Below are positions 9,250-36,389 of a DNA stretch of 39,985 bases, one piece after another. Positions within the stretch are counted from its first letter, which is position 1. Each line of letters opens with the position of its first letter. Made by a program: the position numbers and the translations under genes. The notes beneath the pieces are model-generated. The model worked only from the letters and a program-made list of their open reading frames with translations. It did no database searches and was not told where the DNA came from. The stretch is from Novosphingobium sp. 17-62-19 (lineage in GTDB: Bacteria; Pseudomonadota; Alphaproteobacteria; Sphingomonadales; Sphingomonadaceae), in the NCBI RefSeq assembly GCF_002256775.1, contig NZ_NCII01000015.1, positions 1 through 39,985 of the forward strand, read 5' to 3'.

Positions 9250-9391
9250 TGCGCTAGCAGCCTATACTCGACAGCGCCGCAATCGCAACGGCGTTCGACA
9301 GATGCGAACCTTTTGCGGATACCTATGCAACATTCGCGTGCCAATATGGTTTCCGCTTCGCGCTCGCAGCACGAGGCGAGGTAGGCAAAAC

Positions 9392-20082: not shown

Positions 20083-21906
20083 TCAGAGTCCTGCCGCCGC
20101 GAGCATTGCCGAACCGCCGCGCTCCGCCGGGTCCGAATGGTCCCGCATCAATGCAAAGAGCTCGCGCCCTACGCCAACGCCGCCACCGGGTGCAACCGAA
20201 TCAGCCCGCGCGCTCCATTCCGCTTCAGGCACCAGTGCAGTCAGTTCCCCGGTCGTAGCGCACACCCGAACCACATCACCGTCGCGCAACTTGGCCAACG
20301 CGCCGCCCAGCTTGGCTTCGGGCGAGACGTGGATGGCTGCTGGAACCTTGCCAGAAGCGCCAGACATGCGTCCATCGGTCACCAGTGCCACCTTGAAGCC
20401 GCGATCCTGCAACACACCAAGCGGCGGGGTGAGCTTGTGCAGTTCAGGCATACCGTTGGCAGCTGGCCCCTGGAACCGGACGACAACAACAACGTCCTTT
20501 TCCAATTCACCCGCCTTGAACGCCGCAAGAACCGAGTTCTGGTCCTCGAACACACGACAAGGTGCCTCGATAGCCCATCGCGAAGGATCAACGGCGCTAA
20601 CCTTGATCGTCCCGCGCCCCAGATTGCCGCGAAGCAGGCGGAAACCGCCCTCGGGCTGGAAAGGGGCCGCGACCGGGCGCAGCAGCGCGTCGTTGGCTGA
20701 AACCACCGGCGGCGGCACCCAAGCCAGAGCATCGCCGTCCATCACCGGTTCCTGCGCCCCTTCTTCCAGCGATTTGCCATAAACGGTCATGATATCGGCA
20801 TGGGCCAGCCCTGCGCCGATCAGTTCACGGATCACATAGGGCATCCCGCCGGCGGCCGCGAAGGCGTTCACATCGCCCGCACCATTGGGGTAAACACTGG
20901 CAACCAAGGGCACTACACGACTCAACTCGTCCATATCGTCCCAGTCGATCTGGATACCGGCGGCGCGTGCGATGGCCGGCAGGTGGATCACATGATTGGT
21001 CGACCCGCCAGTCGCCAGCAGGCCGACGATGGCGTTAACGATGGCTTTTTCATCCACACACAGACCCAACGGGCGGTAGTCATCCCCGTCCCATCCAATC
21101 TGCGCAACACGGTGCGTCGCCGCGCGCGTCAGTTCCTGCCGCAGCTTCTGGCCGGGCTGGACGAAGCTGGACCCGGGCATATGCAAGCCCATCATTTCCA
21201 TCATCATCTGGTTGGAATTGGCGGTGCCATAGAACGTGCAGGTGCCCGCCGAATGATAGCTCGCGCTTTCGCTTTCCAGCAACTCGTCGCGCCCTACCTT
21301 GCCCTCGGCGTAGAGCTGGCGGATGCGGACCTTTTCCTTGTTAGGCAATCCGCTCGGCATTGGGCCTGCGGGCACAAGGATTGTCGGCAGATGGCCAAAG
21401 CGAAGCGATCCGATCAGCAGCCCCGGCACGATCTTGTCGCAGATGCCCAGCAGCAAAGCACCTTCGAACATTGCGTGGCTGAGGCCGACGACCGTGGCCA
21501 TGGCAATGTTGTCGCGGCTGAAAAGCGACAGTTCCATCGAATCCTGCCCCTGCGTAACACCATCGCACATCGCCGGAACGCCGCCCGCCACCTGTGCCGT
21601 CGCACCCACTTCACGCGCGAAAATCTTGATCTGCTCAGGGTAGCGGCCATAGGGCTGATGTGCCGAAAGCATGTCGTTATAAGCGGTAACGATGCCGATG
21701 TTCATCGCCCTGCCTGACTTGATCAACGCCTTGTCGTCGCCTGACGCGGCAAAGCCATGTGCGAGGTTTCCGCAAGACAACTGCGGCCGGTTAAGCCCCT
21801 GCTCGCGCGAACGCTCAATCAGATCGATATAGGCGGCGCGCGTGCTGCGCGAACGCTCGATGATGCGTTGTGTGACGCGCTCGACGGTGGGGTTCAGCGG
21901 CATCAT
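20083..21906 (-). CDS. edd: Phosphogluconate dehydratase
   Basis: Dehydrates 6-phosphogluconate to 2-keto-3-deoxy-6-phosphogluconate, the defining step of the Entner-Doudoroff pathway. The 607-residue protein belongs to the IlvD/Edd family, with iron-sulfur cluster cysteines in [16 protein letters not shown] and [13 protein letters not shown]; the C-terminal domain includes [19 protein letters not shown]. The ATG overlaps the pgl stop (ATGA). The partner aldolase gene (eda) is not downstream, where glk stands instead. Confidence 0.97.
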
Positions 21907-22529
21907 TCGCTCCAGTAGATTGTGACGGGCGGGCCATATCCGCGCAGGAAATCGGTAACCGGGTAACGGTCATCACCGGCAATGGCGCGCTCCATCAGCG
22001 CCTTCTTCGAAGCACCGGTAACAACCAGAATGATCTCTTTGGTCGCCTTAAGTGCCTTGGCGTTGAGCGTCAGCCGGTCAAACGGCGCTTCTGGCGGCAG
22101 CGGGATCGGTGTGGTGGCGATCACCGCCGGACCGGGGCGCACGTGGGCCTTCATCTCAGGGAACAACGATGCAACGTGCCCATCCTCACCCATGCCGAGC
22201 CAAACCAGATCGAAAGGCGCAACCTCAGCACCTTCCTCAAGTCGCTCGAATGTCGCTCCCGATGTTCCGAGCGCTGCATGAATCTTACCAAAGTTGCTGG
22301 CAGCATGATCGTCAGGCACGCGCCGGTCATCGGTCAGCGCAATGGTCACGCTTGCCCAGTCCAGCGGGCGATCCTTCAGCAGGGCCAGCACCTTGATCGG
22401 CGTAGAGCCGCCGGTGAAAGCAATCCGCTTGTGCCCCGGCGCAGAAACGACGCGGGCGATGTGATCAGCCACCGCAACTGCATCGCCCGGCTCAGCCCAT
22501 TCAACCGTAGCTGCCACAGCCTCAGTCAT
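21903..22529 (-). CDS. pgl: 6-phosphogluconolactonase
   Basis: Hydrolyses 6-phosphoglucono-delta-lactone to 6-phosphogluconate. The product is about 208 residues (DevB/Pgl type, related to the glucosamine-6-phosphate isomerase fold), with [11 protein letters not shown] near the N-terminus, [14 protein letters not shown] and [17 protein letters not shown]. The ATG at 22529 overlaps the last codons of zwf by eight bases and has GGAG five bases before it; an ATG at 22544 would lack such a signal. It is coupled to edd at its 3' end. Confidence 0.94.
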
Positions 22530-23970
22530 TCCAACTCCTTCCATCGCGCTCGGTCAGCGCGATGCCGGCGTTCGGACCCCAGCTTCCTGCGGCATAGGGC
22601 TTGGCTTCCATGCCGGTATCAGCCCAGACCTTGCGGATCGCATCGACCCATTTCCACTGCGCTTCCACCTCGTCGCGCCGCACGAAGAGCGTCTGCTCCC
22701 CCTCGATCAGGTCAAGCAGCAGGCGTTCATAGGCGATGCGGCGGCGGGCCTTGGCAAAGGCCGTGGTCAGCGACAGATCAAGGTTCACTTCGCGCAGCAC
22801 GATCCCGCCGCGGTCCAGCCCCGGCTCTTTGGCCATGACCTGCAACCGCACGTATTCCTCAGGCTGGAGCCGGATCACGAGGCGGTTGGCGCGCAGCCGC
22901 CCTCCCCGCTCGGAAAACACATTGTGCGGCACTTGCTTGAACTCGACGACAATCTCGCTGCGCCGTTCACTCAGCCGCTTGCCAGTGCGCAGATAGAACG
23001 GCACCCCGGTCCAGCGCCAGTTATCGACATGCGCCTTGATCGCAACGAATGTCTCAGTGTCCGAAGCCTCGCCCAGATCCTCCTCATAGCCGGTGACCGA
23101 AGCTCCCTTCACCGCGCCGGTACGGTACTGTCCGCGCACCATCTCTTCCGCTTTCGCAGGGCGCAGCGCGCGAAGAACCTTGACCTTTTCGTCGCGAATC
23201 GACGTCGCATCAAGGTTCGCAGGCGGCTCCATCGCCGTAAGCGCCAGCAACTGGAGCATGTGGTTCTGTACCATGTCACGCAGTGCGCCGGTGTCGTCGT
23301 AGAACCCCTTGCGGCCTTCCAGTCCCACCGTTTCGCTGACCGTGATCTGCACGTGATCGATGCCGCCCGCATTCCACAGCGGTTCGAACATCATATTGGC
23401 AAAGCGCAGGGCCATAAGGTTCTGGACCGTCTCCTTGCCTAGGTAATGGTCGATGCGGAAGATCTGTTCCTCGGCAAAGGCCCCGGCCACAGCGTCGTTG
23501 ATGCGCGTTGACGACGCGAGATCGTTGCCCAGCGGCTTTTCAAGCCCGATCCGCACGTTGGTGTGGGCCAGACCTGCACGCTTCAACCCTTCGATAGTAG
23601 GCTCGAACAGAAACGGGGCGGTCGACAGGAAGATCGATAGGCCGCATGACGTATCGCCCAATTTCTTCGCCAGATCGCCAAAGCCATCGACATTGGACGC
23701 ATCCAGCGTCTGATACTCCAGCCGATCAAGAAAGCTTGCCAGCTTGGCCTCGTCCTTGCGATCCTCAGGCAGAAACTCTGCCAAGGCATTGCGCGCAAAT
23801 TCGCGGAATTCGGCATCATCATGTTCGGAACGTGCCGTGCCAACGATCCGCAGGTCGGGAGAGATCAGTTCGTCTTCATGCAATGCGTAAAGCGAGGGCA
23901 GCAACATGCGGCGGGAAAGATCCCCGGTCGCGCCGAACAGCAGCAAGGCCGAGCAGCTGGATTCGATCAT
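22522..23970 (-). CDS. zwf: Glucose-6-phosphate 1-dehydrogenase
   Basis: Oxidises glucose-6-phosphate to the lactone with NAD(P). The 482-residue protein has the dinucleotide-binding FGATGDLSRR (12-21), EKPLG (144-148) and the active-site motif RIDHYLGKE (172-180; Asp174 and His175 in the catalytic region). The ATG at 23970 follows GGGAG by about 10 bases and starts the protein just before the dinucleotide motif; the longer reading to 24024 is not needed. It leads the zwf-pgl-edd-glk operon. A near-palindrome at 24068-24079 lies 97 bp upstream. Confidence 0.97.
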   Translation of the reverse strand: MIESSCSALLLFGATGDLSRRMLLPSLYALHEDELISPDLRIVGTARSEHDDAEFREFARNALAEFLPEDRKDEAKLASFLDRLEYQTLDASNVDGFGDLAKKLGDTSCGLSIFLSTAPFLFEPTIEGLKRAGLAHTNVRIGLEKPLGNDLASSTRINDAVAGAFAEEQIFRIDHYLGKETVQNLMALRFANMMFEPLWNAGGIDHVQITVSETVGLEGRKGFYDDTGALRDMVQNHMLQLLALTAMEPPANLDATSIRDEKVKVLRALRPAKAEEMVRGQYRTGAVKGASVTGYEEDLGEASDTETFVAIKAHVDNWRWTGVPFYLRTGKRLSERRSEIVVEFKQVPHNVFSERGGRLRANRLVIRLQPEEYVRLQVMAKEPGLDRGGIVLREVNLDLSLTTAFAKARRRIAYERLLLDLIEGEQTLFVRRDEVEAQWKWVDAIRKVWADTGMEAKPYAAGSWGPNAGIALTERDGRSWND

Positions 23971-24067
23971 CGACGCAATTCTCCCGTTGGTGTTGCGGGC
24001 CGTAGATGGACGGCTGACGATCACCTTGCGGCACCGCCCTAGACCCTAAAGGACCGCCGTTCAGCAC

Positions 24068-24079
24068 GCATAAGTATGC
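24068..24079. promoter_or_regulatory. Putative LacI-family operator upstream of zwf
   Basis: GCATAAGTATGC, which matches the palindrome GCATACGTATGC at 11 of 12 positions. It is 97 bp before the zwf ATG, between zwf and the GH97 stop. Related 12-mers stand upstream of the TonB receptor and MFS genes. Confidence 0.5.
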
Positions 24080-24106
24080 AGGATAGCTATGCGCGGCGAT
24101 ACGGCC

Positions 24107-24134
24107 GGTGATGGTTGTGCATTGCACCATCGCC
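24107..24134 (-). other. Hairpin downstream of the GH97 gene
   Basis: Nine-base arms GGTGATGGT and ACCATCGCC pair with one G-U wobble around a 10-base loop. It lies 30 bases past the GH97 stop and upstream of the zwf operator. There is no T run, so termination is possible but not shown. Confidence 0.35.
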
Positions 24135-24163
24135 GACCGCAATCCCGTCATTCCATTTCCGGC

Positions 24164-26212
24164 TTACTTTGCTGGCTGCAATCGCACGGCAAGGCCACCG
24201 CCGGGGGCCAACCATGCCGGAAATACGTCGCCTTTCCTGACTTTCAGCGTGGCGTAAGCAATCCGATGGCGGGCGTCGGTTGCATACGTGGCCCCCTCCC
24301 CATCCTTCCAGATCATGGCCGTGTAAGTCTTGCCTGCGTCGAGGAAATCAAGCGACAGCGCAACATCACGCGCCGTCGCATCGTTGACCCCACCAATATA
24401 CCAGTCTTCGCTGTTGCGATCCTTGCGCGCGAAGATTGCGTAGTCGCCCACCGCACCTGCGATCAGATGGCTTTCAGACCAGTCTGCCGGGACTTGCTTG
24501 ATGAAGGCCAGTTCCTTCGGATACGCCTCAAGGCTCTCGACAAAGTCCGCCGCCATCTGGATCGGGGAATAGAGCGCCAGATAGAGGCCGAGCTGCTTGG
24601 CCAGCGTAGACGCCAGCGGCACCTTGTTCGCGCCTTCAAGGCTCAGGATACCTGGCGTGTAATCCATCGGGCCTGACAGCATCCGCGTGTAGACGAGCGT
24701 CGGTTCATGGTCCGGGCCATTGGCGAACTGGCCCCACGCATTGTATTCCATGCCCCGCGCGCCTTCGCGGTCTATCCAGTTGGGATAGGTGCGACGCAGA
24801 CCCGTGTCCTTCACCGGTTCATGCGCATTGATGGCGATGCGATGCTTCGCCGCCGTCTGCACCACTTTGAGATGGTGCTGAACCGCGCGCTGGCCGTCGT
24901 GGAATTCCATCCGATACGCGCCGGGTGTATCACCGGGGGCCAGAATGCCGCCAGCATCCGCCACATAGCCGGTCTTCACCGCGCGCACGCCAAGCCGGTC
25001 ATACAGCTTCATCGCATCGTCCAGTTGGGCTTCATAGTTGGCGATATTGCCGCCAGTTTCATGATGCCCGATCAGCATGACGCCCTTCTTCGCGCCATAC
25101 TTCGTCACGGCCTCCAGATCGAAGTCGGGGGTTGCCTCGGTATAGCTGAAGTCCTTGCCGCTGCCGAACCAAGTGCCGTTCCAGCCCATGTCCCAACCTT
25201 CGACCAAAACCCCGCCAAAGCCATGCTTCGCGGCAAAATCGATGTACTGCTTGGTCCGAGCAGTGGTTGCGCCGTGGTTCGGGCCTTCCGCCCATGACCA
25301 GTCGCCCCGGATCATGCCCCACCAGATGCCGATATACTTCATCGGCTTGAAGTAAGAGACATCGCCGATCTTGTTCGGTTCGTTGAGATTCAGTTCAAGA
25401 TCGTTCTCGACAATGCCTTTCGCACCGTCAGCAATCCGCACTGTCCTCCAAGGCGTGTTGAACGGCAGCGCCCGGATGACTTTCGGCCCGCTGCCAGATG
25501 GCGCCAAGGTTGCGCGGAAAGATGTGCCGGTCTGGCGTTTCAGCCACATCGCCGAATAGTCAACCAGTGCAGCCTCATGGAACGACAGGTGCGTCCCATC
25601 CTCCAGCTTCATAGTGATCGGGGTATGCGCGGTCGAAACACCGTCAATCGCCGTCTGCTGGTAAACCTGCTCGTAACGGTTCCATTCGCTGCCGGGAATC
25701 CACCATGCGGTGCCATTCTGCGCCACGTTGAACTCGGTCAGTTCGTCGGCAATCTTCATCACCTGCATCGCGGGCTGTTCCGGCATTTCATAACGGAAGC
25801 CCACACCGTCGTTGAACAGGCGGAAGCGCACGTTCATGCGGCGGCTGCCCCAGTCGGGCACCTGCTCGAACCGCACCAGCAGTTCGTTATGGTTGTCCGT
25901 CACAAAGCGCCGCTCACCCCACGGCTGTTCCCACGTTTCCTTGCCAGACGCGGTCTCGCTGCCGACAATCTTCTGCCCGCGCTGCATCGTGGGGCCATCG
26001 CTGGTGATGAAGCCCAGCATTGATGAGCCGATGAGCAGCTTGCCTTTGCGCATCACGCTATAAATCGGATGCCCGTCGTTGTCGGTCGTGACCGACAGGA
26101 CAATGGAGCCATCGGGCGAAGCTGCAGTCACCGTCTCGGCAAAAGCAGGCGTCATGAGGGCGCACGAAAGGGTCAGCGCCAGCGGCGCTGCACAAGCCAA
26201 ATTGTATCGCAT
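24164..26212 (-). CDS. GH97 family alpha-glucosidase, secreted
   Basis: Exported glycoside hydrolase of family 97 that should remove glucose from the non-reducing ends of maltooligosaccharides. The 682-residue protein begins with a signal peptide (MRYNLACAAPLALTLSCALM, probable cut after PAFA). It has an N-terminal beta-sandwich (to about 275), a TIM barrel with EGWDMGWNGTW, and a C-terminal beta domain. Three glutamates fit the inverting alpha-glucosidase subgroup (SusB/BtGH97a type): Glu385 in GHHETGG, Glu465 in INAHEPVKD and Glu489 in GMEYNAW; the last two have the same 24-residue spacing as in BtGH97a. The start is coupled to the preceding GH13 gene (TGATG); a longer reading to 26398 is rejected. 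Confidence 0.94.
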   Translation of the reverse strand: MRYNLACAAPLALTLSCALMTPAFAETVTAASPDGSIVLSVTTDNDGHPIYSVMRKGKLLIGSSMLGFITSDGPTMQRGQKIVGSETASGKETWEQPWGERRFVTDNHNELLVRFEQVPDWGSRRMNVRFRLFNDGVGFRYEMPEQPAMQVMKIADELTEFNVAQNGTAWWIPGSEWNRYEQVYQQTAIDGVSTAHTPITMKLEDGTHLSFHEAALVDYSAMWLKRQTGTSFRATLAPSGSGPKVIRALPFNTPWRTVRIADGAKGIVENDLELNLNEPNKIGDVSYFKPMKYIGIWWGMIRGDWSWAEGPNHGATTARTKQYIDFAAKHGFGGVLVEGWDMGWNGTWFGSGKDFSYTEATPDFDLEAVTKYGAKKGVMLIGHHETGGNIANYEAQLDDAMKLYDRLGVRAVKTGYVADAGGILAPGDTPGAYRMEFHDGQRAVQHHLKVVQTAAKHRIAINAHEPVKDTGLRRTYPNWIDREGARGMEYNAWGQFANGPDHEPTLVYTRMLSGPMDYTPGILSLEGANKVPLASTLAKQLGLYLALYSPIQMAADFVESLEAYPKELAFIKQVPADWSESHLIAGAVGDYAIFARKDRNSEDWYIGGVNDATARDVALSLDFLDAGKTYTAMIWKDGEGATYATDARHRIAYATLKVRKGDVFPAWLAPGGGLAVRLQPAK

Positions 26213-27846
26213 CAGATCCTCTCTTCGATCAGCAGCGCGCCGAATGGCGGAAGCTGCTCCCCGTTTGCGCCGTTGACCGACGCGAGTTGGTTTCCATCCC
26301 GTAGCAACCCTTGCAGAAGCGCCACAGAAGACGATGACAGGTTGAACACTCCTGCAATCGATTGCTGACCGTAAATGCGTCGAATGACAAGTAGGCATTC
26401 GTCTGCATGAAGCACTTCGAATGTGCCAAGACGCAAAGCGGGATGATCGCGCCGCATACGCAGCAATGCCGTGGTAAGGTTCAGCAGCGAATCCGCGTCA
26501 GCTTCCTGCCGGTCAACCGCGCGGCCGAGGTTATCCTCACCCACTGGCAGCCACGGCACGCCCACGGTAAAGCCCCCCTCACCTGACTGCACTATCCACG
26601 GCATCGGCGTACGCGCGCCATCGCGCGAAAGCGTCAGCGGCCAGTTGGCAATCGCCTCAGGATCTTGCAACTGTTCGAACGGGATATCGACTTGGGTGAG
26701 GCCCAGTTCCTCGCCTTGATAGACGATGATGTTTCCCCGCAGCGATGCAAACAGCATCGCCTTCAACCGCCCGAATGCATCGCGATGTTCCGGCGCACAC
26801 CAGCGTGAAAGCGCGCGCGGCGCATCGTGGTTTTCGAAGGCCCAGCTTGGCCAGCCTATCCCCGGCGCATCGGTCCACTTGGACACCGCTTGTTCGACGA
26901 ACTTCGGCGTGAGCCTGTCCGCATAAAGGAAATCAAAACCATAGGCGCTGTTCAGGTGCTGCTCGCCCGCAGTGAACGCCTTCATCTCCGTCTCGGCCAG
27001 ATCGCCGCCCACTTCGGCCACGGTAAACACCGCGCCATATTCGTCGCACAGTTCCCGCACCCGCTGGATGAACCCGATAATGTCCGGGTGCGACTGGTTG
27101 TAGATCTTGAGTTGGAAATCAAACGGACGCGTTTTCCGGCGGCCATCGTCGGGCGCAGGCGGATTGTCGCGCATCGTCGGGTCGTGCATCAGAAAGTTCA
27201 GCGCATCCAGCCTGAACCCGTCCACGCCCCGGTCCAGCCAGAAGCGCATAACCCCCAGCAGGGCTTCCTGCACTTCCGGGTTATGCGCGTTCACCTGCGG
27301 CTGGCTGGAAAGGAAGTTGTGCAGATAATACTGCCGCCGCCGCGCATCCCATGTCCACGCTGGCCCGCCGAATACCGACTGCCAGTTTGATGGCGGCGAG
27401 CCATCGGGCTTTGGGTCGGCCCAGACGTACCAGTCGGCCTTGCCATTCGTGCGGTCCTGTCGGCTCTCTTGGAACCACGGGTGCAGGTCCGAAGTGTGCG
27501 CATAGACCTGATCGATGGTGACGTTCAGCCCCAACTCGTGCGCCCGCGCCACCATCGCGTCAAAATCTTCAAGCGTTCCGAAGATCGGATCGACGCCGCA
27601 ATAGTCCGCCACGTCATAGCCGAAATCGCGCATCGGCGAGGTGAAGAAGGGCGACACCCAGATCGCATCGACGCCAAGCCGGGCGACGTGTTCGAGGCGC
27701 GATGTGATCCCCGGAAGATCGCCGATTCCATCGCCGTTGGAATCGCAGAAGCTGCGCGGGTAGATTTGATAGATCGCCGCACCGCGCCACCACGGCACAG
27801 CATTTTTCGTGTCGTGATCAGCGTGAAGAGCTTCGGTCTTATTCAT
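26212..27846 (-). CDS. GH13 alpha-glucosidase (GH13_23-like), cytoplasmic
   Basis: A 544-residue retaining alpha-glucosidase that would hydrolyse maltose and short maltooligosaccharides, or sucrose. There is no signal peptide, so it acts in the cytoplasm. The catalytic triad is visible: nucleophile Asp214 (GFRLDALNF), acid/base Glu278 (VAEVGG) and transition-state stabiliser Asp341 (FENHDAPRA). The first conserved region reads DQVYAHTSD rather than the more usual DLVPNHTSD, which points to subfamily GH13_23 (assignment from memory). The ATG overlaps the amylase stop (ATGA), and its stop overlaps the GH97 start. Confidence 0.93.
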   Translation of the reverse strand: MNKTEALHADHDTKNAVPWWRGAAIYQIYPRSFCDSNGDGIGDLPGITSRLEHVARLGVDAIWVSPFFTSPMRDFGYDVADYCGVDPIFGTLEDFDAMVARAHELGLNVTIDQVYAHTSDLHPWFQESRQDRTNGKADWYVWADPKPDGSPPSNWQSVFGGPAWTWDARRRQYYLHNFLSSQPQVNAHNPEVQEALLGVMRFWLDRGVDGFRLDALNFLMHDPTMRDNPPAPDDGRRKTRPFDFQLKIYNQSHPDIIGFIQRVRELCDEYGAVFTVAEVGGDLAETEMKAFTAGEQHLNSAYGFDFLYADRLTPKFVEQAVSKWTDAPGIGWPSWAFENHDAPRALSRWCAPEHRDAFGRLKAMLFASLRGNIIVYQGEELGLTQVDIPFEQLQDPEAIANWPLTLSRDGARTPMPWIVQSGEGGFTVGVPWLPVGEDNLGRAVDRQEADADSLLNLTTALLRMRRDHPALRLGTFEVLHADECLLVIRRIYGQQSIAGVFNLSSSSVALLQGLLRDGNQLASVNGANGEQLPPFGALLIEERI

Positions 27847-29666
27847 CGAGCGGGTTTTTCCGGGGAGGGAGAGACTCGGCAGACCACACTGCCGAAAGCG
27901 GGAATTTCAAGCATGACCGAACCCGGTGCTGTTACGTGCGCAGGACATTGACCATAAAGGCTTTCAAGGCTGTTTGCGGTCGCTTGGAGCACGCTTGGTG
28001 CAGTTAGGTGCTGTTCAGACGTGTTGAAGGCAATCAGGTATTCCCTACCTGTGACAGGATCAAAACGGGATACGGAAAACAACCCCGGCACCTCTGAATA
28101 CGTCCGCGTAACCTGCCGCCCGCGCGCAATGGCGGGATGATCCCGGCGGAGCTTTGCCAGCGTCGAGATCAGCCGGTAAAGCGGGTGCCGGGTGTCGAAA
28201 TTGCTGGCAGCGGTGGTAGCACTGGTGCCCACAAGTGCGTTGTCGTTGTAGCTGGCGGTCCGGCTTGGGAACATATCCTCGCGCGCATCCTGATCGTTGC
28301 CGTCGCCAATAAAGCCCTGTTCATCGCCGGAATAGATCACCGGCGATCCGCGCAAGGTCAGCAGCATGGCATGGGCAAGGCTCACCCGCGCCAGCACTTC
28401 GGCGTCGGATATTCCGGGCCGGTCCTTGCGCACCAGCATGGCGAAACGGCCCATGTCATGATTGCCAAGGAACGTCGGCATGGCCAGCGCTGCTGCCTCG
28501 CCGCCCTCATACAACACGTCGCCATCGAAGGTGTCGGCCAGAACCTCGGTGCCCTTCCCTTGCGCCACTATCGCACGCACTGCGCCCTGGAATGCGAAGT
28601 CCAGCACTGCCGGATAGCCGTCACGCCGGGTGTAGCGCGCGATGGTGCCGGGGTCTGAGCCTTCGTGCGCCACTTCACCAAAGATCGCGAAGTTGGGGAT
28701 GCCCGCCTGCTTGGCGGTGGATTGCATTGCCGGAATGAAGGCCTGCCAGAAACCGGGATCGACATGTTTGGCGGTGTCGATGCGATAGCCGTCGATGCCG
28801 AACCGCTTGATCCAGTCGGCATAAATCTCGATCATCCCGCTGCGAACGCGTGGGTGTTCGGTGAAGAGGTCATCAAGTCCCGCAAAGTCGCCAAAGCGGC
28901 TGTTCTCGCCTCGGAAAGTCGTGTCGCCCCGGTTATGATAGAACAACGGATCGTTGAGCCACGCTGGCGTCTTGGCGTTGCGCTCTGCCTCCGGGACGAA
29001 GGGTTCATAGGCCGCCCCCGGATCGGTCAGCTTGGCAAAATTTGCCTCGCTGGAATCCTCGTCGCCGGCAAACCCCGGATTGATTGCAGGACCTTTCAGA
29101 CCACCCTTGCGCGAATAGGGCCAGTTCGCCCGGTCGCGGTAGGTGTACTGGCCGCTCTTGTATTGGATCACGTCCGCCGTGTGGTTGGCGATAATGTCCA
29201 TGTAAACCTTCAGCCCCCGCGCATGGGCCGCATCAACCAAAGCCTTGAATTCGGCATTGGTCCCGAAATGTGGGTCGACGCGGGTAAAGTCTGTGACCCA
29301 GTACCCGTGATATCCGGCGCTCTCCTGCCCCGGAAGGCCCTGAACCGGCTTGTTCTTGAATACCGGCGCCACCCAGATTGCGGTCGCACCAAGGCCTTGC
29401 AGATAGTCGAGCCGGGACATCAGCCCCTTCAGATCGCCGCCGTGGTAGAAGCCCTTGGCCGCAGGATCGAATCCGGTCTTGTACCGATCTCCTTTCAGGC
29501 CACCGGTATCGTTCTTCGTGTCGCCATTTTCGAAACGGTCGGGAAGGAGGAAGTAGATCGTCTCCCCCGCTGCTGGTCGCGCGCGAACTTCAGCAATCGG
29601 AACATCGGCAAGTGCCGACTGCGCCACGCAGAACGCCATCAGAGATGCGGCAACGAGTTTACGCAC
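27843..29666 (-). CDS. GH13 alpha-amylase family protein, secreted
   Basis: A 607-residue exported endo-acting glucan hydrolase, first gene of the three-hydrolase set. A GTG start at 29666 follows GAAGGGG by eight bases and gives a clean signal peptide (VRKLVAASLMAFCVAQSALA). The GH13 catalytic residues are nucleophile Asp297 (GYRIDTAKHVD), acid/base Glu331 (FGEVAHEG) and Asp404 (FLGNHDMGR). Other family regions are IYFLLPDRFENGD and DIIANHTAD. It would cut starch or maltooligosaccharides in the periplasm after uptake by the receptor upstream. An in-frame reading to 29849 runs into the receptor gene and is unlikely. Confidence 0.92.
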   Translation of the reverse strand: MRKLVAASLMAFCVAQSALADVPIAEVRARPAAGETIYFLLPDRFENGDTKNDTGGLKGDRYKTGFDPAAKGFYHGGDLKGLMSRLDYLQGLGATAIWVAPVFKNKPVQGLPGQESAGYHGYWVTDFTRVDPHFGTNAEFKALVDAAHARGLKVYMDIIANHTADVIQYKSGQYTYRDRANWPYSRKGGLKGPAINPGFAGDEDSSEANFAKLTDPGAAYEPFVPEAERNAKTPAWLNDPLFYHNRGDTTFRGENSRFGDFAGLDDLFTEHPRVRSGMIEIYADWIKRFGIDGYRIDTAKHVDPGFWQAFIPAMQSTAKQAGIPNFAIFGEVAHEGSDPGTIARYTRRDGYPAVLDFAFQGAVRAIVAQGKGTEVLADTFDGDVLYEGGEAAALAMPTFLGNHDMGRFAMLVRKDRPGISDAEVLARVSLAHAMLLTLRGSPVIYSGDEQGFIGDGNDQDAREDMFPSRTASYNDNALVGTSATTAASNFDTRHPLYRLISTLAKLRRDHPAIARGRQVTRTYSEVPGLFSVSRFDPVTGREYLIAFNTSEQHLTAPSVLQATANSLESLYGQCPAHVTAPGSVMLEIPAFGSVVCRVSPSPEKPAR

Positions 29667-29736
29667 GGGCTGGACCCCTTCCACGGTCAGAGCGCACCTT
29701 ACACTGCATTGCGTTGCAATCCCGCGCAAGCAGGGT

Positions 29737-29765
29737 GGAGGGGGCGGGATGAGGCCGCCCCCTCC
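29737..29765 (-). other. GC-rich intercistronic hairpin between receptor and amylase genes
   Basis: Perfect 11-base arms GGAGGGGGCGG and CCGCCCCCTCC around a seven-base loop, 11 bases after the receptor stop and about 70 bases before the amylase start. There is no T run. It may be an mRNA stabiliser or partial terminator that lets the receptor be made in excess over the enzymes. Confidence 0.6.
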
Positions 29766-29775
29766 GAGGGAACCA

Positions 29776-32478
29776 TCAGAACTTGTAGTTGAACCCGGCC
29801 ATGAAACGGCGGCCATAGGTCTGGTAGTTGCGGATCTGCAGCGGCGCACCGTTATCGACCGAGACGAACGGTTCGTCTGTCAGGTTCTGGCCCTGCAGGA
29901 ACAGCGACAGACCGTTGAGCGGGCTGCTCTCCTGGAAGTCATACCCGATCTGCGCATCGACAATGGTCTCCTTCAGCGCGCGGCGCAGTTCACGCTCGCC
30001 ACCGAAGCCAACGAAGATGCCCTGGAACGACGAGCGATAACGGGCCGAAACGCGGGCGTTGAACCCAGCCTTTTCGAAAAACAGCGTGCCCGAACCAACC
30101 CAGCGCGAATAGTCCGGCAGATCCATGGAGTCCGCGTTCGGTCCCGGCTTGATCGAGGTCTTGGTGTAGCCGAGGCCGCCGGTGAAGCCGAAGCCTTCAA
30201 GCGCGGGTGTGATCACATCAAACGGCAGGGTGCCTGCCAGTTCCACGCCGTAGAGTTCACCGCCAGTGCCGTTTACCGCCGTCGTAATTGTGCCCACGAA
30301 ATTGGTGATTGGCACGGGTGCGACCACGGGCAGGCCGCTGTAGTCGAACGGCACGACATCGCGGTAGATGTAGTTGTCGAGCTTCTTGTAGAACATCTGA
30401 ACCCCGACATAACCCTTGCTGCCGAAGTACTTCTCGATGTTCAGATCCGCTGCCCAGGCGCGATAGGGTTCCAGCTGCGGGTTGCCGCCATTGCCGGTGA
30501 TCACACCGCTGTTGACGTTGTAGCTGTAATCGAGGCTGACTTTCATGTCTTCGAAACGGGGGCGCTGGATTTCGCGGGCCGCAGCAACGCGGACCACCCA
30601 GTCTGCGGGCAGACGGAAGTTCAGGTTCATGCTGGGCAGGAAGTCCCAGTAGCGCGCACCGCGCGTCACCGGCACCAGACTGGCCGAGGCAAGGTTCTGG
30701 AACCCGCGTGATTTCTGTTCGGTGTTCTGCGCCAGCAGGCCGATGTTGCCGTCCATCTCCACCGCGCCGAAAGCAGCCTTGAGATCGCCCTTTATGTAGA
30801 TCGACATGACCCGCTCGGTCACCGAGTAGGCCTTGGCCGGAACGTCCTTGCTGGTGTTCGGCGTCAGGACATAGACGCCGTCTTCAAGCATCGCGAAGGG
30901 ATCGTAACCGATGATCGGACCGACACCGATGAAGCCCAGATCGGTCGCGCCCGTGCGGTACTTTTCCGGCACTGTCAGCGACTTCGCGCCACCGGCAAGG
31001 TTGAGGAACGATTCAACCGGCGTCTTGCCCTTCGTGCGATCAACATAGGCCGTGCCGACCGTCAGCTTTGACAGGAAACCGCTCTCCAGTTCCTTGCCCA
31101 CCTCGATCTGGAAGCTCTTGATCTCATCGTCGATGATGCGATCGTTGTAGTACCCTTCCTGCGAACCCAGCGGTGCGCCAGCGCCCCAGCCCAGCGGATC
31201 GGTCAGCACAATCGTGTTGTAGTTGCCGTAATCCAACGTGTTGCTGGTGAACGTAGTGCCGGTAGGACCGCTCACGAATGTCAGCGTATCGGCAGCGCCC
31301 ACGCCAGCGCCCGGCCCTGTCCCGGCGTTGGTCTCCAAAGTCAGCTCGCTGCGGTCGGTCTTCGAATAGCCGAAATCGAACGACGCCGACCAGCCATCGT
31401 CACCGGTCCAGTCCGCATTGAAGCCGCCCGAAAAAATGTCGGACCGGCGTTCATAGCCGTGATTGTTGACCACGGCCTCGACACCGGTGAAAGTGCCCTG
31501 CGTGATCAGATTGCCATTGGTCTGGATGCCCGCTGTCGACAGTTGCGCCGGGCTGAACGCCAGCGGAAACTCGACGCCGCGCTTGATCTGCTTGTCGGTA
31601 AACTTGCCGTAGAAGCCATCAACCGTCAGCATCAGTTCGTCCACCGGCTTGAACTGAACAGTGCCCTGGATGCCGAGCCGCTGGAGCTGGGTCGAAACAC
31701 CAAAGGGCTTCATTCCCCCGATGACCTTGGTGCCATTCGGCGCATCGGCATAGCCCCAGGCCTCGAATTCCTGCGCCTGATACGGCTCGTCGGTATATGC
31801 CGCAGACAGCGCCACACCAAGGCGGTCTTCCATGAACTGACCAACATAAGTGCCTGTGGCGCGATAGCCGAATTCGTTGCTGTCAGCGTTGACCTTGCCC
31901 AGATCGGTGTAGGTGCCGCGTCCGCCGAAAGAGACCAAACCCTTGCCGAATTCCAGCGGGCGGATCGTCTTGATATCTACCGTGCCGACCAGGCCTTGAT
32001 GCACAAGGTTGGCCTGCGGTGCTTTATAGACATCGACGCGGCTGACGATTTCCGAGGGGAACTGGTCGAACTCGACATTGCGCTGTTCGCCGGTCGACGT
32101 TTGCGGGCGTCCGTTCAGCGTGGTCGACGACAGGTCGGCGCTCGACCCGCGAATGGCGATGGAGTTGGCGCGGCCAAACAGACGCTGGGTGGTCAGGCCC
32201 GGCAGGCGGGCGATCGATTCACCGATCGATGCATCGGGCAAGCGGCCAATGTCCTCAGCCGAAACCGATTCCACGATCACCGATGAGGTCTTCTTGGTGT
32301 TCACCGCCGTGGCCAAGGAGGCGCGGAACCCGGTGACGACGATGGCTTGCTCTTCACCTTCTGGCGCGGCCTGTGGTTCTGCCGTGGCGTCTTGCGCCAA
32401 CGACGGACTGGCGACGAGGGTCATGGTCAATGCTGCAAGCGAAGCGCCCGCAATTGCGGTGAATGTGCGAATAGCCAT
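29776..32478 (-). CDS. TonB-dependent receptor, probably for maltooligosaccharides or sucrose
   Basis: Outer-membrane transporter that takes up substrate using the proton-motive force relayed by TonB. The product has about 900 residues: a signal peptide (MAIRTFTAIAGASLAALTMTLV, cut after SLAQ), an Ala/Glu linker with a TonB-box-like AIVVTGFRAS, a plug domain (to about 185) with GRLPDASIGESIARLPGL and IRGSSADLSSTTLNGR, and a 22-strand barrel ending RRFMAGFNYKF with the typical terminal Phe. It resembles the oligosaccharide-type receptors of Caulobacter and Xanthomonas. The ATG at 32478 has GGGAG 11 bases upstream; a GTG at 32490 would sit on that signal. The substrate is inferred from the hydrolases next to it. 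Confidence 0.93.
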   Translation of the reverse strand: MAIRTFTAIAGASLAALTMTLVASPSLAQDATAEPQAAPEGEEQAIVVTGFRASLATAVNTKKTSSVIVESVSAEDIGRLPDASIGESIARLPGLTTQRLFGRANSIAIRGSSADLSSTTLNGRPQTSTGEQRNVEFDQFPSEIVSRVDVYKAPQANLVHQGLVGTVDIKTIRPLEFGKGLVSFGGRGTYTDLGKVNADSNEFGYRATGTYVGQFMEDRLGVALSAAYTDEPYQAQEFEAWGYADAPNGTKVIGGMKPFGVSTQLQRLGIQGTVQFKPVDELMLTVDGFYGKFTDKQIKRGVEFPLAFSPAQLSTAGIQTNGNLITQGTFTGVEAVVNNHGYERRSDIFSGGFNADWTGDDGWSASFDFGYSKTDRSELTLETNAGTGPGAGVGAADTLTFVSGPTGTTFTSNTLDYGNYNTIVLTDPLGWGAGAPLGSQEGYYNDRIIDDEIKSFQIEVGKELESGFLSKLTVGTAYVDRTKGKTPVESFLNLAGGAKSLTVPEKYRTGATDLGFIGVGPIIGYDPFAMLEDGVYVLTPNTSKDVPAKAYSVTERVMSIYIKGDLKAAFGAVEMDGNIGLLAQNTEQKSRGFQNLASASLVPVTRGARYWDFLPSMNLNFRLPADWVVRVAAAREIQRPRFEDMKVSLDYSYNVNSGVITGNGGNPQLEPYRAWAADLNIEKYFGSKGYVGVQMFYKKLDNYIYRDVVPFDYSGLPVVAPVPITNFVGTITTAVNGTGGELYGVELAGTLPFDVITPALEGFGFTGGLGYTKTSIKPGPNADSMDLPDYSRWVGSGTLFFEKAGFNARVSARYRSSFQGIFVGFGGERELRRALKETIVDAQIGYDFQESSPLNGLSLFLQGQNLTDEPFVSVDNGAPLQIRNYQTYGRRFMAGFNYKF

Positions 32479-32817
32479 GTTGAATCTCACTCCCCCAAGC
32501 CGGACATTTCCGGCCTCGAAATCTGGTCGATGTATCGTGATGCGAAGGACGGCGCCGCTGAGCCGGGCTTCCGTTCGAATCCGGTTTTAAGGGAGAGAGC
32601 GGCGATGACGAATATGGCATACGTATACTATGCGTAATTTGGTTTCAGATGAAGCTTTCTTGCCACGCAGCGGACCCGCCCGAAAATCCCGATAAATCGG
32701 CACCTTCACACCGGTATTGCACGGTCGCAGACTCCTGATTGCATGAGTGGAACTTCACGCATACACTCTTGGCCAGCCAGCTTCGGGACCACACCGGGCG
32801 GCGGGAGAGACGGGGAT
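32479..32817. promoter_or_regulatory. Divergent control region between the receptor and LacI-family genes
   Basis: 339 bases without a convincing gene. It holds the ribosome-binding sites of both flanking genes and a putative operator at 32617-32628 followed by TATGC, so GCATA and TATGC arms flank an inner CGTATAC. A stretch of alternating A/T-rich sequence (32611-32640) is the least GC-rich part and is the likely receptor promoter area. No -35/-10 pair could be fixed with confidence. Confidence 0.5.
32617..32628. promoter_or_regulatory. Putative LacI-family operator upstream of the TonB receptor gene
   Basis: GCATACGTATAC, 11 of 12 matches to the palindrome GCATACGTATGC with the central CG common in LacI-family operators. 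It lies 139 bp before the receptor ATG and 190 bp before the regulator gene, so it could control either or both. Confidence 0.6.
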
Positions 32818-33852
32818 ATGGGGCGTCGGCCATCGAACAAGCCAACCAGCTTTGACATTGCCTATCTTGCAGGGGTTTCGCAGCCAACGGTCAGCCGTGC
32901 GCTGCGTGGCAGCAAATCGGTCAGCATAGCCACCCGGCAGAAGATCGAGGCCATTGCCCGCCAGCTCAACTATACGGTGGACAAGAACGCTTCGTCATTG
33001 CGCTCTCAACGGTCAAACACACTGGCGCTGCTGTTCTTTGAAGACCCGACGCCCGATGAATCGAACATCAATCCGTTCTTCCTTGCCATGCTCGGGTCGA
33101 TCACCCGGCACTGCGCCAACCGTGGGCTGGACTTGCTGATTTCATTCCAGAAACTGGATGACGATTGGCACAAGCGCTATCAGGATAGCCACCGCGCCGA
33201 TGGCCTGATCCTGCTCGGCTATGGCGACTACACTGCCTACGAGCCGCGCCTGCGCCAGTTGCTGAAATCCGGTACGCACTTCGTGCGCTGGGGTTCGGTC
33301 GATGCAGGGACGATCGGCGCAACCGTCGGCTCTGATAACTTCGGCGCGGGGCGGATGGCCGGGGAGCATTTGCTGGCACGCGGGCGCAGAAAAATCGCCT
33401 TTCTGGGCCAGGCGGATTCACACTACCCAGAGTTTGAGCAGCGCTATGCAGGCCTTGCCAAGGCGATCACTACAGCCGGGCTGGAGCCAGACCCCAACCT
33501 GATCGTCGATGCCGTATCGGACGAGGAAGTCGGCTACAAAGCCGCCCACGAACTGCTGGCGCGTGGTATGCCCTTTGACGCCGTGTTCGCCGCGAGCGAC
33601 CTTATCGCCATTGGCGCGATGCGAGCGATGGCCGAAGCTGGCCTGAATGTGCCCAATGACATTGCGGTTGTCGGCTTTGACGATATCCCGACCGCTGCCT
33701 TTACATCGCCACCGCTGACCACGCTGATGCAGGATATTCGGCTCGCCGGCGAGGCATTGGTCGAAAGCGTGCTGGCGCAGGTTGAAGGTCGCGCCCCCAA
33801 TCCCCGCGTGTTGCCAGCCCGGCTGGTGGTCCGCGCCAGCAGCGGCGGTTGA
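32818..33852 (+). CDS. LacI-family transcriptional regulator
   Basis: A 344-residue DNA-binding regulator. The helix-turn-helix is at the N-terminus (FDIAYLAGVSQPTVSRAL), followed by the hinge region (NYTVDKNASSLRSQ), whose leucine matches the residue that inserts at the centre of LacI operators. The rest is a periplasmic-binding-protein-like sensor domain with VGSDNFGAGRMAGEHLL and DAVFAASDLIAIGAMRA. It is divergent from the receptor operon and precedes the MFS and fructokinase genes, so it probably represses the sugar genes until an inducer such as maltose or sucrose binds. The start at 32818 is chosen by domain position and GGGAGAGACGGGG upstream. Confidence 0.93.
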   Translation: MGRRPSNKPTSFDIAYLAGVSQPTVSRALRGSKSVSIATRQKIEAIARQLNYTVDKNASSLRSQRSNTLALLFFEDPTPDESNINPFFLAMLGSITRHCANRGLDLLISFQKLDDDWHKRYQDSHRADGLILLGYGDYTAYEPRLRQLLKSGTHFVRWGSVDAGTIGATVGSDNFGAGRMAGEHLLARGRRKIAFLGQADSHYPEFEQRYAGLAKAITTAGLEPDPNLIVDAVSDEEVGYKAAHELLARGMPFDAVFAASDLIAIGAMRAMAEAGLNVPNDIAVVGFDDIPTAAFTSPPLTTLMQDIRLAGEALVESVLAQVEGRAPNPRVLPARLVVRASSGG

Positions 33853-33873
33853 TCTTCCAGCTCGCAATTTTTG

Positions 33874-33885
33874 GTATTCGTATGC
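33874..33885. promoter_or_regulatory. Putative LacI-family operator upstream of the MFS gene
   Basis: GTATTCGTATGC, 10 of 12 matches to the palindrome GCATACGTATGC, 102 bp before the MFS ATG. Read towards its gene it aligns with the receptor site at 11 of 12 positions (GTATWCGTATGC). An 8-bp palindrome, ATGCGCAT, overlaps its right edge. Confidence 0.5.
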
Positions 33886-33987
33886 GCATCGATTGCAGCG
33901 CCGTGCGGATTCTGCGACGTCGCGTTGCATGAAGCCACAAGCATGGTCGCGCCAGACGGCCAGCAGCGCCGTGATCGGGGAGTAGAG

Positions 33988-35493
33988 ATGACCACATATT
34001 CCGGCGCCTTCGCCCCGCCCAAGCCGCGGCAGAGCTTCTGGGGCCTTTGGAATATCAGCTTCGGCTACTTCGGGATCCAGCTCGCCTTCGCGCTGCAGAA
34101 CGCCAATGTCAGCCGGATTTTTCAGTCGCTCGGCAGCTCGGTTGATGACCTGGCCTTCCTGTGGATTGCAGGGCCGGTCACTGGCCTGCTGGTGCAGCCA
34201 CTGATCGGCTACTACTCGGACCGCACCTGGGGGCGCCTTGGCCGCCGCCGTCCTTATTTCCTCGCCGGAGCTGTGCTGGCTGCACTCGCACTGATCGGCC
34301 TGCCCAACGCCGGCCTGCTGCTGTTTGCGGCGGCTTTCCTGTGGATGCTGGATGCTTCGCTGAACGTTGCGATGGAGCCGTTCCGCGCCTTTGCCGGTGA
34401 CATGACGCCCGATGATCAGCGCGCGCAGGCCTTCGCGTTCCAGACGGCGTTTATCGGTGCAGGAGCAGTGCTGGGCAGCCTTGCTCCCGCATTGTTCAAC
34501 TGGCTTGGCATTGCCAACACCGCACCTGACGGCGTGATCCCGGCATCAGTGCGCTACAGCTTCTACCTTGGCGCGGTGGCCATCGTGCTGAGTGTGGGGT
34601 GGACCGTTCTGCGCGTGCGCGAATATGCGCCGGATGAAATGGCCGCGTTTGAAGGCACCAGCGCGAACCCGGATGTTGTGCAGCATGAGCCGCTGGTCCA
34701 CCCACGCACCGGCCCGCTGTGGGTTACTGCTGGTGGTGTCCTTCTGGCGCTGGTTGCTGCGTTTCAGCTCGATAAGCAGCTCTATGTTCTGGGCAGCGGG
34801 CTTGCGCTCTTTGGGGCAATCCAGATCGGCGTTCGCGCCACGTCTGCCAAGGGTGCTCTTGCCCACATCGTTTCCGATCTTGCGCAGATGCCTGTGCAGA
34901 TGAAGCAACTCGCCTTTGCGCAGTTCTTCACGTGGATCGGCTTTTTCATCGTGTGGATCTACACTACCCCGGTCGTCACCGCGCAAGCCTTTGGCGCGAC
35001 CGACACTGCAAGCGCCGCCTACAATGAAGGCGCAGACTGGGTCGGCGTGATGTTTGCGTTCTACAATGGGGTGGCCATCGTGGTGGCCTTCCTCCTGCCA
35101 GCCCTTGCAAAGCGCATCGGCAATGCCGGTACACACGCCGTTGGGCTGCTGTGCGGGGCCGCCGGGTTCATCGGCCTCTTGCTGATGCGTGACCCTGTCA
35201 TGTTGCTGTTGCCGATGGTCGGCATGGGCATTGCCTGGGCTTCGGTCCTGTCGATGCCATATGTGATCCTCACCCGCGTGTTGCCGCCCCGCAAGTTCGG
35301 CATCTACATCGGGATATTCAATTTCTTCGTCGTCATACCCCAGCTTGTCGTTGCCACACTGATGGGTGGCATCATGCGCAGCTTCTTCCCCGGAGAGCCG
35401 CGCTGGACGATGCTGGTAGCCGCATTGATGATGGCATTGGCGGCTGCGGCGATGATGCTGGTTCGCGAAAATTCAAAGGATGTTGCAGCATGA
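33988..35493 (+). CDS. MFS sugar transporter (SUT/SLC45-like alpha-glucoside or sucrose symporter)
   Basis: A 501-residue inner-membrane protein with about 12 predicted helices. The loop after the second helix reads GYYSDRTWGRLGRRRPYF, close to the RxGRRR motif of plant sucrose transporters and SLC45 proteins, so proton-coupled import of sucrose or maltose is likely. The first helix region (FWNISFGYFGIQLAFALQ-like; here FGYFGIQLAFALQNANVSRI) is also typical of that group. The ATG at 33988 follows GGGGAG by five bases. Its last codon overlaps the fructokinase start (ATGA). The hydrolases nearby fit either disaccharide. Confidence 0.88.
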   Translation: MTTYSGAFAPPKPRQSFWGLWNISFGYFGIQLAFALQNANVSRIFQSLGSSVDDLAFLWIAGPVTGLLVQPLIGYYSDRTWGRLGRRRPYFLAGAVLAALALIGLPNAGLLLFAAAFLWMLDASLNVAMEPFRAFAGDMTPDDQRAQAFAFQTAFIGAGAVLGSLAPALFNWLGIANTAPDGVIPASVRYSFYLGAVAIVLSVGWTVLRVREYAPDEMAAFEGTSANPDVVQHEPLVHPRTGPLWVTAGGVLLALVAAFQLDKQLYVLGSGLALFGAIQIGVRATSAKGALAHIVSDLAQMPVQMKQLAFAQFFTWIGFFIVWIYTTPVVTAQAFGATDTASAAYNEGADWVGVMFAFYNGVAIVVAFLLPALAKRIGNAGTHAVGLLCGAAGFIGLLLMRDPVMLLLPMVGMGIAWASVLSMPYVILTRVLPPRKFGIYIGIFNFFVVIPQLVVATLMGGIMRSFFPGEPRWTMLVAALMMALAAAAMMLVRENSKDVAA

Positions 35494-36389
35494 GCGGGCA
35501 AGGTTTGATCGGTGCGGTGGAGGCAGGGGGCACGAAGTTCGTTCTCGCGCTCTCAACGCAGCAAGGCGAAATCCTTGCCCGCACGCGTATGCCCACCAAC
35601 ACGCCCGGCGAAACCTGGCTCGCGATGAGGGCGTTCTTCGAACAGGCTAGCGCGGAACATGGGCCTATCGACGCATTCGGCGTGGCAAGCTTTGGCCCGA
35701 TCGACATTGACCCTGCCTCACCGGCCTACGGCACCTTTACCACCACGCCAAAGCCCGGTTGGGCAGGCGCGCGATTCCATGATGCTCTGGGCCAGTTCGA
35801 TGCTCCGATCATGGTGGATACCGATGTGAACGGCGCAGCAATCGGCGAATGGATGGCGGGCGCAGGGCAAGGTTGCCGGACGCTGGCCTATACCACCATC
35901 GGCACCGGCATCGGCACAGGCGTTGTGCGCGATGGCCGATCCTTGATGGGCATATCACACTTCGAAAGCGGCCACATCGTGGCCCCGCGTGATCGTGTTC
36001 GCGATCCCTTTCCCGGCATCTGCCCCTTCCACGGCGATTGCCTTGAAGGTCTGGCTTGTGGCCCTGCGATCGAGCGCCGCTGGGGCAAGAGCCTTGACCA
36101 ACTGGGGCATGACGAAACCAAGCTGATCGCCAGCTATATCGCGCACCTCGCCAGTACGCTGGTGCTACTGCACATGCCCGACAGGTTGATCTTTGGCGGT
36201 GGCGTCATGAAGGCACCGGGACTGGTGGAAGCAGTGCGCCGCGAGACTGCCGCAAAGCTGAATGGCTATATCAGCCATCCACGTCTGGACGAGGGTCTGC
36301 AGAGCTACATCGTCACGCCCGGTCTTGGCGATGACGCGGGCATCACCGGCGCAATCGAACTTGGACGTCAGGCACTCGCCAAGGGATAA
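35490..36389 (+). CDS. ROK-family fructokinase
   Basis: A 299-residue sugar kinase that would phosphorylate fructose released by intracellular sucrose cleavage. The N-terminal phosphate loop is AVEAGGTKFVLAL, the second ATP motif is IGTGIGTGVV, and the zinc-binding segment CPFHGDCLEGLACGPA (with a preceding His in SGHIVAPRD) is the form found in ROK fructokinases. It is translationally coupled to the MFS gene by ATGA. Its 3' end overlaps the convergent GH32 gene by 22 bases. Mannose or glucose kinase activity cannot be excluded. Confidence 0.9.
   Translation: MSGQGLIGAVEAGGTKFVLALSTQQGEILARTRMPTNTPGETWLAMRAFFEQASAEHGPIDAFGVASFGPIDIDPASPAYGTFTTTPKPGWAGARFHDALGQFDAPIMVDTDVNGAAIGEWMAGAGQGCRTLAYTTIGTGIGTGVVRDGRSLMGISHFESGHIVAPRDRVRDPFPGICPFHGDCLEGLACGPAIERRWGKSLDQLGHDETKLIASYIAHLASTLVLLHMPDRLIFGGGVMKAPGLVEAVRRETAAKLNGYISHPRLDEGLQSYIVTPGLGDDAGITGAIELGRQALAKG

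Follow-up and report, generated by a model that had tools for sequence, protein, structure and literature searches.

Three similar 12-bp palindromes lie upstream of the Entner-Doudoroff operon zwf-pgl-edd-glk, a TonB-dependent receptor gene and a major facilitator superfamily (MFS) transporter gene in a 39,985-nucleotide stretch of the Novosphingobium sp. 17-62-19 genome (contig NZ_NCII01000015.1; the whole stretch is called the window below). The last two palindromes flank a gene for a LacI-family repressor. Judged by their conservation in related genomes, all three are real regulatory sites, and they are of two classes. The explanation that we favour, with a probability of roughly 0.7, is that two paralogous LacI-family repressors have near-identical half-sites: the LacI encoded in the window would control the local sugar locus, and a paralog encoded elsewhere in the genome, P0002, would control a set of central-carbon genes that includes zwf. 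An earlier, sequence-only reading had assigned all three sites to one regulator. That proposal stands for the receptor and MFS sites, but for the Entner-Doudoroff operon of the source genome the paralog outside the window is the better candidate.

Conservation of the three palindromes

The sequence-only reading described the sites accurately. The 12-mers at 24068, 32617 and 33874 match a common palindrome at 11, 11 and 10 of 12 positions, respectively. Distances to the gene starts are ~97 bp for the first (zwf, ATG near 23970), 139 bp for the second (receptor, start at 32478) and ~103 bp for the third, counted from its end at 33885 (MFS gene, start at 33988). Their predicted resemblance to LacI-type operators was also supported.

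When up to two mismatches are allowed, the window contains six matches where 1.38 are expected, and one of 100 shuffles reached six. Three other, weak matches start at 9317, upstream of pdhA and also conserved, and at 26395 and 35581, inside listed genes. We rejected this count as proof of function on its own: over the whole genome the same search gave 66 places, against 43 with a reversed-pattern control. Since a two-mismatch match alone is therefore weak, conservation was used instead. Mean identity over the site columns is 0.97 between receptor and lacI (75 sequences), 0.91 between lacI and the MFS gene (65) and 0.99 upstream of zwf (35), while that of the flanks is 0.49, 0.46 and 0.52, respectively. 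Near-invariant site columns within variable flanks settle that the sites are real. The near-background genome-wide count would fit a chance similarity of functionless sequences, but this pattern, seen over dozens of genomes, contradicts that explanation, to which we give almost no weight.

The local operator pair around lacI

The sites at 32617 and 33874 are very probably the local operator pair of the LacI encoded between them. A search with this protein returned 80 loci, mostly from Novosphingobium, Sphingobium and Erythrobacter-type genera. In their usual layout, a group formed by the TonB receptor gene, two GH13 genes and a GH97 gene lies opposite lacI and the MFS gene. Usable intervals numbered 75 between receptor and lacI (all loci except L073, L075, L077, L082 and L091) and 66 between lacI and the MFS gene (all except L041, L043-L053, L055 and L091). 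With a site scored as present at 9 or more matches of 12, the first interval carries it in 75/75 regions and the second in 65/66, the miss being L092, and every one of the 140 detected sites has a CG centre. In the source genome, RYATWCGTATRY matches only at the two places flanking lacI. An excess of this CG-type site over chance in that genome was considered and rejected, the pattern giving 3 strand-hits and the reversed control also 3; over eight genomes the counts were 39 and 12, respectively. A promoter scan of positions 32470-34000 found nothing overlapping the two operators.

Several relatives vary this arrangement. In L021-L039 and L042, as against L016-L020, the TonB receptor is 33-37% identical to that of the window, LacI 80-85% and the GH13 proteins 67-78%, with the operator 12-mer unchanged; the receptor seems, from these comparisons, to have been exchanged while the switch stayed as it was. 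Nine loci (L059, L060, L062, L063, L066, L074, L079, L080 and L088) have an extra ~700 bp between receptor and lacI, and in them the operator remains close to the receptor, ~900 bp from lacI. In most of L041 and L043-L053, mainly from Sphingobium, the receptor-lacI interval has, immediately after the operator, another palindrome of odd length such as GCATAATATGC, which may be part of a promoter or a further site. A CG-type site ~31 bp before an alpha-amylase-family gene in L285 (G067) suggests a wider local regulon in some relatives. Finally, a transketolase gene in L295 and L289 (G009 and G067, respectively; the gene family was checked on L295) is preceded by GCATTCGTATGC, which in some relatives is a local-type MFS operator.

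The zwf site and the central-carbon set

For the zwf site, 102 same-genus genomes with a zwf match were retained, of which 36 are near (zwf at least 79% identical, source genome included) and 66 distant; G068 and ten partial matches (G020, G023, G053, G056, G062, G085, G086, G088, G108 and G118) were left out. Eight genomes of other families, which were not counted, had no 9/10 match. The site is kept in 35 of the 36 near genomes, always as GCATAC[TA]TATGC and hence with a CG centre in 0/35, and the sole exception, G038, is 68% complete. At a cut-off of E 1e-100, the window LacI was found in 24 of the 36. All 24 have the zwf site, and so do 11 of the 12 in which this LacI was not found; nine of those eleven are at least 97% complete. 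Because it is kept where the window LacI is not found, the zwf site appears independent of that protein, which argues against the idea that the same regulator acts on the Entner-Doudoroff operon. Four loci (L109, L111, L112 and L114) have no adjacent second palindrome, and GCAAAAGTATGC stands ~33-34 bp upstream of their zwf site instead.

By its sequence, the zwf site belongs to a set found upstream of zwf, eda, class I fba and pdhA. In eight relatives GCATANNTATGC occurs at 25 places, against 4 for the control, with eight of them at zwf (8/8 genomes) and nine at the gene for class I fructose-bisphosphate aldolase, fba (7/8 genomes). A broader pattern built from the zwf, fba and pdhA sites, GMATASBTATSC, gave 59 strand-hits in six genomes against 11 for the control; its matches recur in all six at zwf, fba and pdhA and also at eda, which had not been used to build it. 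The pdhA site family is present in 22/25 genomes (misses L218, L222 and L226). A genome scan proposed in the sequence-only reading, with enrichment expected upstream of eda, worked in part: where eda is separate, it has its own related site in 12/12 near genomes, ten at 9/10 and two at 8/10 positions (shuffled 250-bp pieces give a 9/10 match in ~0.7% of cases and an 8/10 match in ~9%), and where it lies beside edd or glk a site was found in 0/18 distant genomes. One motif is thus common to the upstream regions of several Entner-Doudoroff and glycolytic genes in different genomes. At zwf in the near genomes, the CG centre typical of LacI operators was not found, and centres vary over the set. 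Three genomes in which the window LacI was not found (G112, G094 and G011) have all four sites, those at zwf, eda, fba and pdhA.

The set probably extends to ppdK (pyruvate phosphate dikinase), at whose start an identical CG-centred site stands in 6/6 genomes, four of them inspected; three of the six gave no window LacI. This site overlaps codons and uses GTA, which makes up 6.3% of the valine codons in 19 window genes, and so rare a codon hints at constraint on the DNA. A site of the central-carbon class was also seen upstream of a glucose/galactose (gluP)-type MFS gene in L268 and L185 (G105 and G077, respectively), the match in L268 being just under the family cut-off.

P0002, the candidate second regulator

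The source genome has seven LacI-family genes, and a regulator for the central-carbon set was sought among them. The best candidate, and most likely its regulator, is P0002, an orphan that follows a gloB-type gene at C84:1573-2589. Of the six paralogs of the window LacI it is the closest, with 41% identity overall and 50% over the DNA-binding region (28-32% and 29-42%, respectively, for the other five), and VSQxTVSRAL is common to these two proteins only. At E 1e-80, P0002 was found in 32 of the 36 near genomes, and the four without it are 68-91% complete. Among 385 genomes of the class, matches of at least 50% identity came from the source genome, G341 and G521, all of the same family. P0002 reaches no NCBIfam cut-off.

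Gene order provides the strongest link of P0002 to zwf. In L339 (G341, another genus of the family), zwf and the gene for the P0002 ortholog are divergently oriented, and the region that separates them holds two matching sites, GCATAGCTATGC ~48 bp upstream of the regulator gene and GAATAGCTATGC upstream of zwf. This arrangement bears on whether the zwf, eda, fba and pdhA sites might instead be bound by a regulator from outside the LacI family. Such a protein would suit centres that are mostly non-CG, which are unusual for LacI operators given that CG is reported in 1173 of 1251 even LacI-family palindromes and other centres in 78 (PMC4052901), and it would suit the absence of such a site before P0002 in the near genomes. 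The L339 pair and the co-occurrence of the sites with P0002 speak against it, and we consider it unlikely.

Distant relatives

In the 66 distant genomes, a matrix built on the window-LacI sites was used to score the last 220 bp upstream of zwf, the cut-off being the top 5% of shuffles; two genomes with a lower-identity P0002 paralog (G008 and G049) were left out of the P0002 tables. With kinship left out of account, a zwf site was found in 7/7 genomes with P0002 only, 19/20 with both proteins, 11/20 with the window LacI only and 1/17 with neither. A central-carbon matrix gave higher zwf scores where P0002 is present (p 4e-4, kinship ignored). On the zwf tree, five independent pairs differ in the window LacI, and the site differs the same way in 1.0 and the other way in 0.1 of them on average, too few contrasts for significance. 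As zwf sites track both paralogs, zwf may be under either, and control by a single regulator may hold in distant relatives without P0002, in which the zwf sites follow the window LacI.

A number of observations weigh against assigning the zwf site to P0002 and the local pair to the window LacI. Where present, the zwf sites of the distant genomes are mostly CG-centred, and they also track the window LacI, at 11/20 in genomes with this protein only against 1/17 with neither. The seven in genomes with P0002 only score low, at 6.1-9.7 bits, where 5% of shuffles exceed 5.3. The central-carbon matrix separates the distant genomes more sharply by the window LacI (p 1e-7, kinship ignored), and the five independent pairs on the zwf tree that differ in P0002 give 1.9 on average with the site the same way and 0 the other way, which is not significant. 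The CG centre at ppdK means that the centre does not divide the two classes perfectly; class assignment by centre dinucleotide alone was rejected on account of ppdK and most of the distant zwf sites. Genomes counted as negative are negative at the cut-off, with at most ten candidates scored in each, and a diverged LacI copy may escape. Before P0002 itself, no match of at least 9/10 occurs in 30 near genomes (four reach 8/10, about chance), a 9/10 match occurs in only one of 20 distant genomes (L425), and an ortholog outside the genus, in L340 (G521), has no site before it. Upstream sites had been considered as proof of P0002 autoregulation and were not found in the near genomes.

Part of this evidence would fit the window LacI alone binding all three sites and coupling import, hydrolysis and the Entner-Doudoroff operon. 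The half-sites are shared, zwf in L069 and L076, as in the source genome, lies beside this LacI/MFS locus, and the zwf scores of all 66 distant genomes follow the window LacI. Yet the nearest zwf match in L069 and L076 is also not CG-centred. All but one of the near genomes in which no window LacI was found keep the zwf site, without a CG centre, and three such genomes retain the sites at zwf, eda, fba and pdhA together. We regard control of all three sites by the window LacI as improbable.

Proposed mechanism

We observe conserved sites with two classes of centre in near genomes, a recurring group of target genes, sites that persist in genomes in which no window LacI was found, and paralogy of the two proteins. 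From these observations we infer binding by P0002, action as dimers, the direction of control and both effectors in the following scheme. The two paralogous repressors would recognise nearly the same half-site, (G)CATA, and differ in their tolerance of the centre. As a dimer on CG-centred palindromes, the window LacI would repress the receptor/GH13/GH13/GH97 genes and the MFS/ROK genes until released by an alpha-glucoside of the maltose type (maltose or a malto-oligosaccharide, to go by the gene content). P0002 would accept other centres (CT, CA, GC and GG) and control zwf-pgl-edd-glk, eda, class I fba, pdhA and probably ppdK; a sugar-acid phosphate is a plausible effector by analogy with CceR, which is said to sense gluconate-6P (PMC5507952).

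This scheme can be extended, with no conflict between the two, by letting P0002 bind every site, the local ones included, and the window LacI only those with a CG centre, so that global control would override local control. The shared half-sites and the CG-centred ppdK sites, half of them from genomes that gave no window LacI, point in this direction. Against it, the ppdK match overlaps codons, the centre preferences come from alignments only, and P0002 is only presumed to act at the receptor or MFS sites; the extension is a tentative one. On a similarly doubtful footing, the Entner-Doudoroff and lower glycolytic genes of the Sphingomonadaceae may answer to a global regulator of the LacI type that is new to the literature and a paralog of the local alpha-glucan repressor; the two would share half-sites and differ in strictness for CG. 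The global regulator could then occupy local operators, and zwf could come under its local counterpart wherever the global protein is lost.

Genes and sites of the window

Table 1. Sites and genes of the window discussed in the text
Feature	Position	Strand	Remarks
zwf operator GCATACTTATGC (read on the zwf strand)	24068..24079	-	non-CG centre; assigned to central-carbon class; in 35/36 near genomes, own included
second zwf palindrome GCATAGCTATCC	24081..24092	-	13 bp centre to centre from the first; same class; beside the first site in the closest relatives
zwf, glucose-6-phosphate dehydrogenase	22522..24024	-	ATG near 23970; TIGR00871 above cut-off
pgl, 6-phosphogluconolactonase	21903..22544	-	TIGR01198 above cut-off
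edd, phosphogluconate dehydratase	20083..21906	-	TIGR01196 above cut-off
glk, glucokinase	19077..20045	-	PF02685 above cut-off
pdhA upstream site GCATAGGTATCC	9317..9328	-	central-carbon class; site family in 22/25 genomes, own included
pdhA, pyruvate dehydrogenase E1 alpha-type subunit	8042..9202	-	PF00676
predicted operator GCATACGTATAC between TonB receptor and lacI	32617..32628	.	CG centre; 75/75 orthologous regions
predicted operator GTATTCGTATGC between lacI and MFS gene	33874..33885	+	CG centre; 65/66 orthologous regions
LacI-family repressor of the local sugar locus	32818..33852	+	PF00356 and PF13377 above cut-offs (DNA-binding and periplasmic-binding-protein-like sensor domains)
TonB-dependent receptor, Xanthomonas/Caulobacter type	29776..32478	-	TIGR01782 above cut-off
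GH13 alpha-amylase-family enzyme	27843..29849	-	PF00128
second GH13 alpha-amylase-family enzyme	26212..27846	-	PF00128
GH97 glycoside hydrolase	24164..26398	-	PF10566
MFS transporter, probably for a sugar	33988..35493	+	PF07690; TIGR01301 match below cut-off
ROK-family protein, probably a sugar kinase	35490..36389	+	PF00480

Comparison with known systems

A Sphingomonadaceae counterpart of known central-carbon regulators would, if true, fill a gap in a group of biotechnological interest. It would also provide a case of paralogous repressors whose operators have common half-sites and differing centres, and a caution that a look-alike operator need not imply the same regulator. Our literature search, conducted mostly by listings, found no paper on a regulator of the Entner-Doudoroff genes or a LacI-type central-carbon regulator in Novosphingobium or Sphingomonas.

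Elsewhere in the Alphaproteobacteria, PckR, GapR and GluR have been predicted as non-orthologous LacI-family regulators of central carbon metabolism in Rhizobiales, Rhodobacterales and Caulobacterales (Ravcheev et al. 2014, PMC4052901), and the set described here resembles their regulons by analogy of targets. That study reports no GluR orthologs outside the Caulobacterales, and its main text has no occurrence of Sphingomonad*. GluR of Caulobacter (CC2053) is the LacI-family regulator predicted there for zwf-pgl-edd-glk, ppdK and other central-carbon genes; unlike P0002, which lies by gloB and has no site before it in the near genomes, gluR immediately follows glk and carries a site of its own (PMC4052901). 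GapR/CceR of the Rhodobacterales and PckR of the Rhizobiales are likewise LacI-family proteins, mostly unclustered with their targets, which are Entner-Doudoroff, glycolytic and other central-carbon genes including fba, eda and zwf (PMC4052901, PMC5507952). GapR/CceR and PckR are described as not orthologous to each other and as having different motifs (20 bp for GapR), and it is by description only that we liken them to P0002.

The local half of the system finds its parallel in the carbohydrate-utilisation (CUT) loci sux of Xanthomonas and mal of Caulobacter, which are reported to combine a TonB receptor, sugar-degrading enzymes, a transporter and a LacI-family repressor, the repressor having been shown for sux (PMC1790865). 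Those loci consist of other genes, whereas the window locus pairs two GH13 enzymes with a GH97 enzyme and has two CG-centred predicted operators around lacI.

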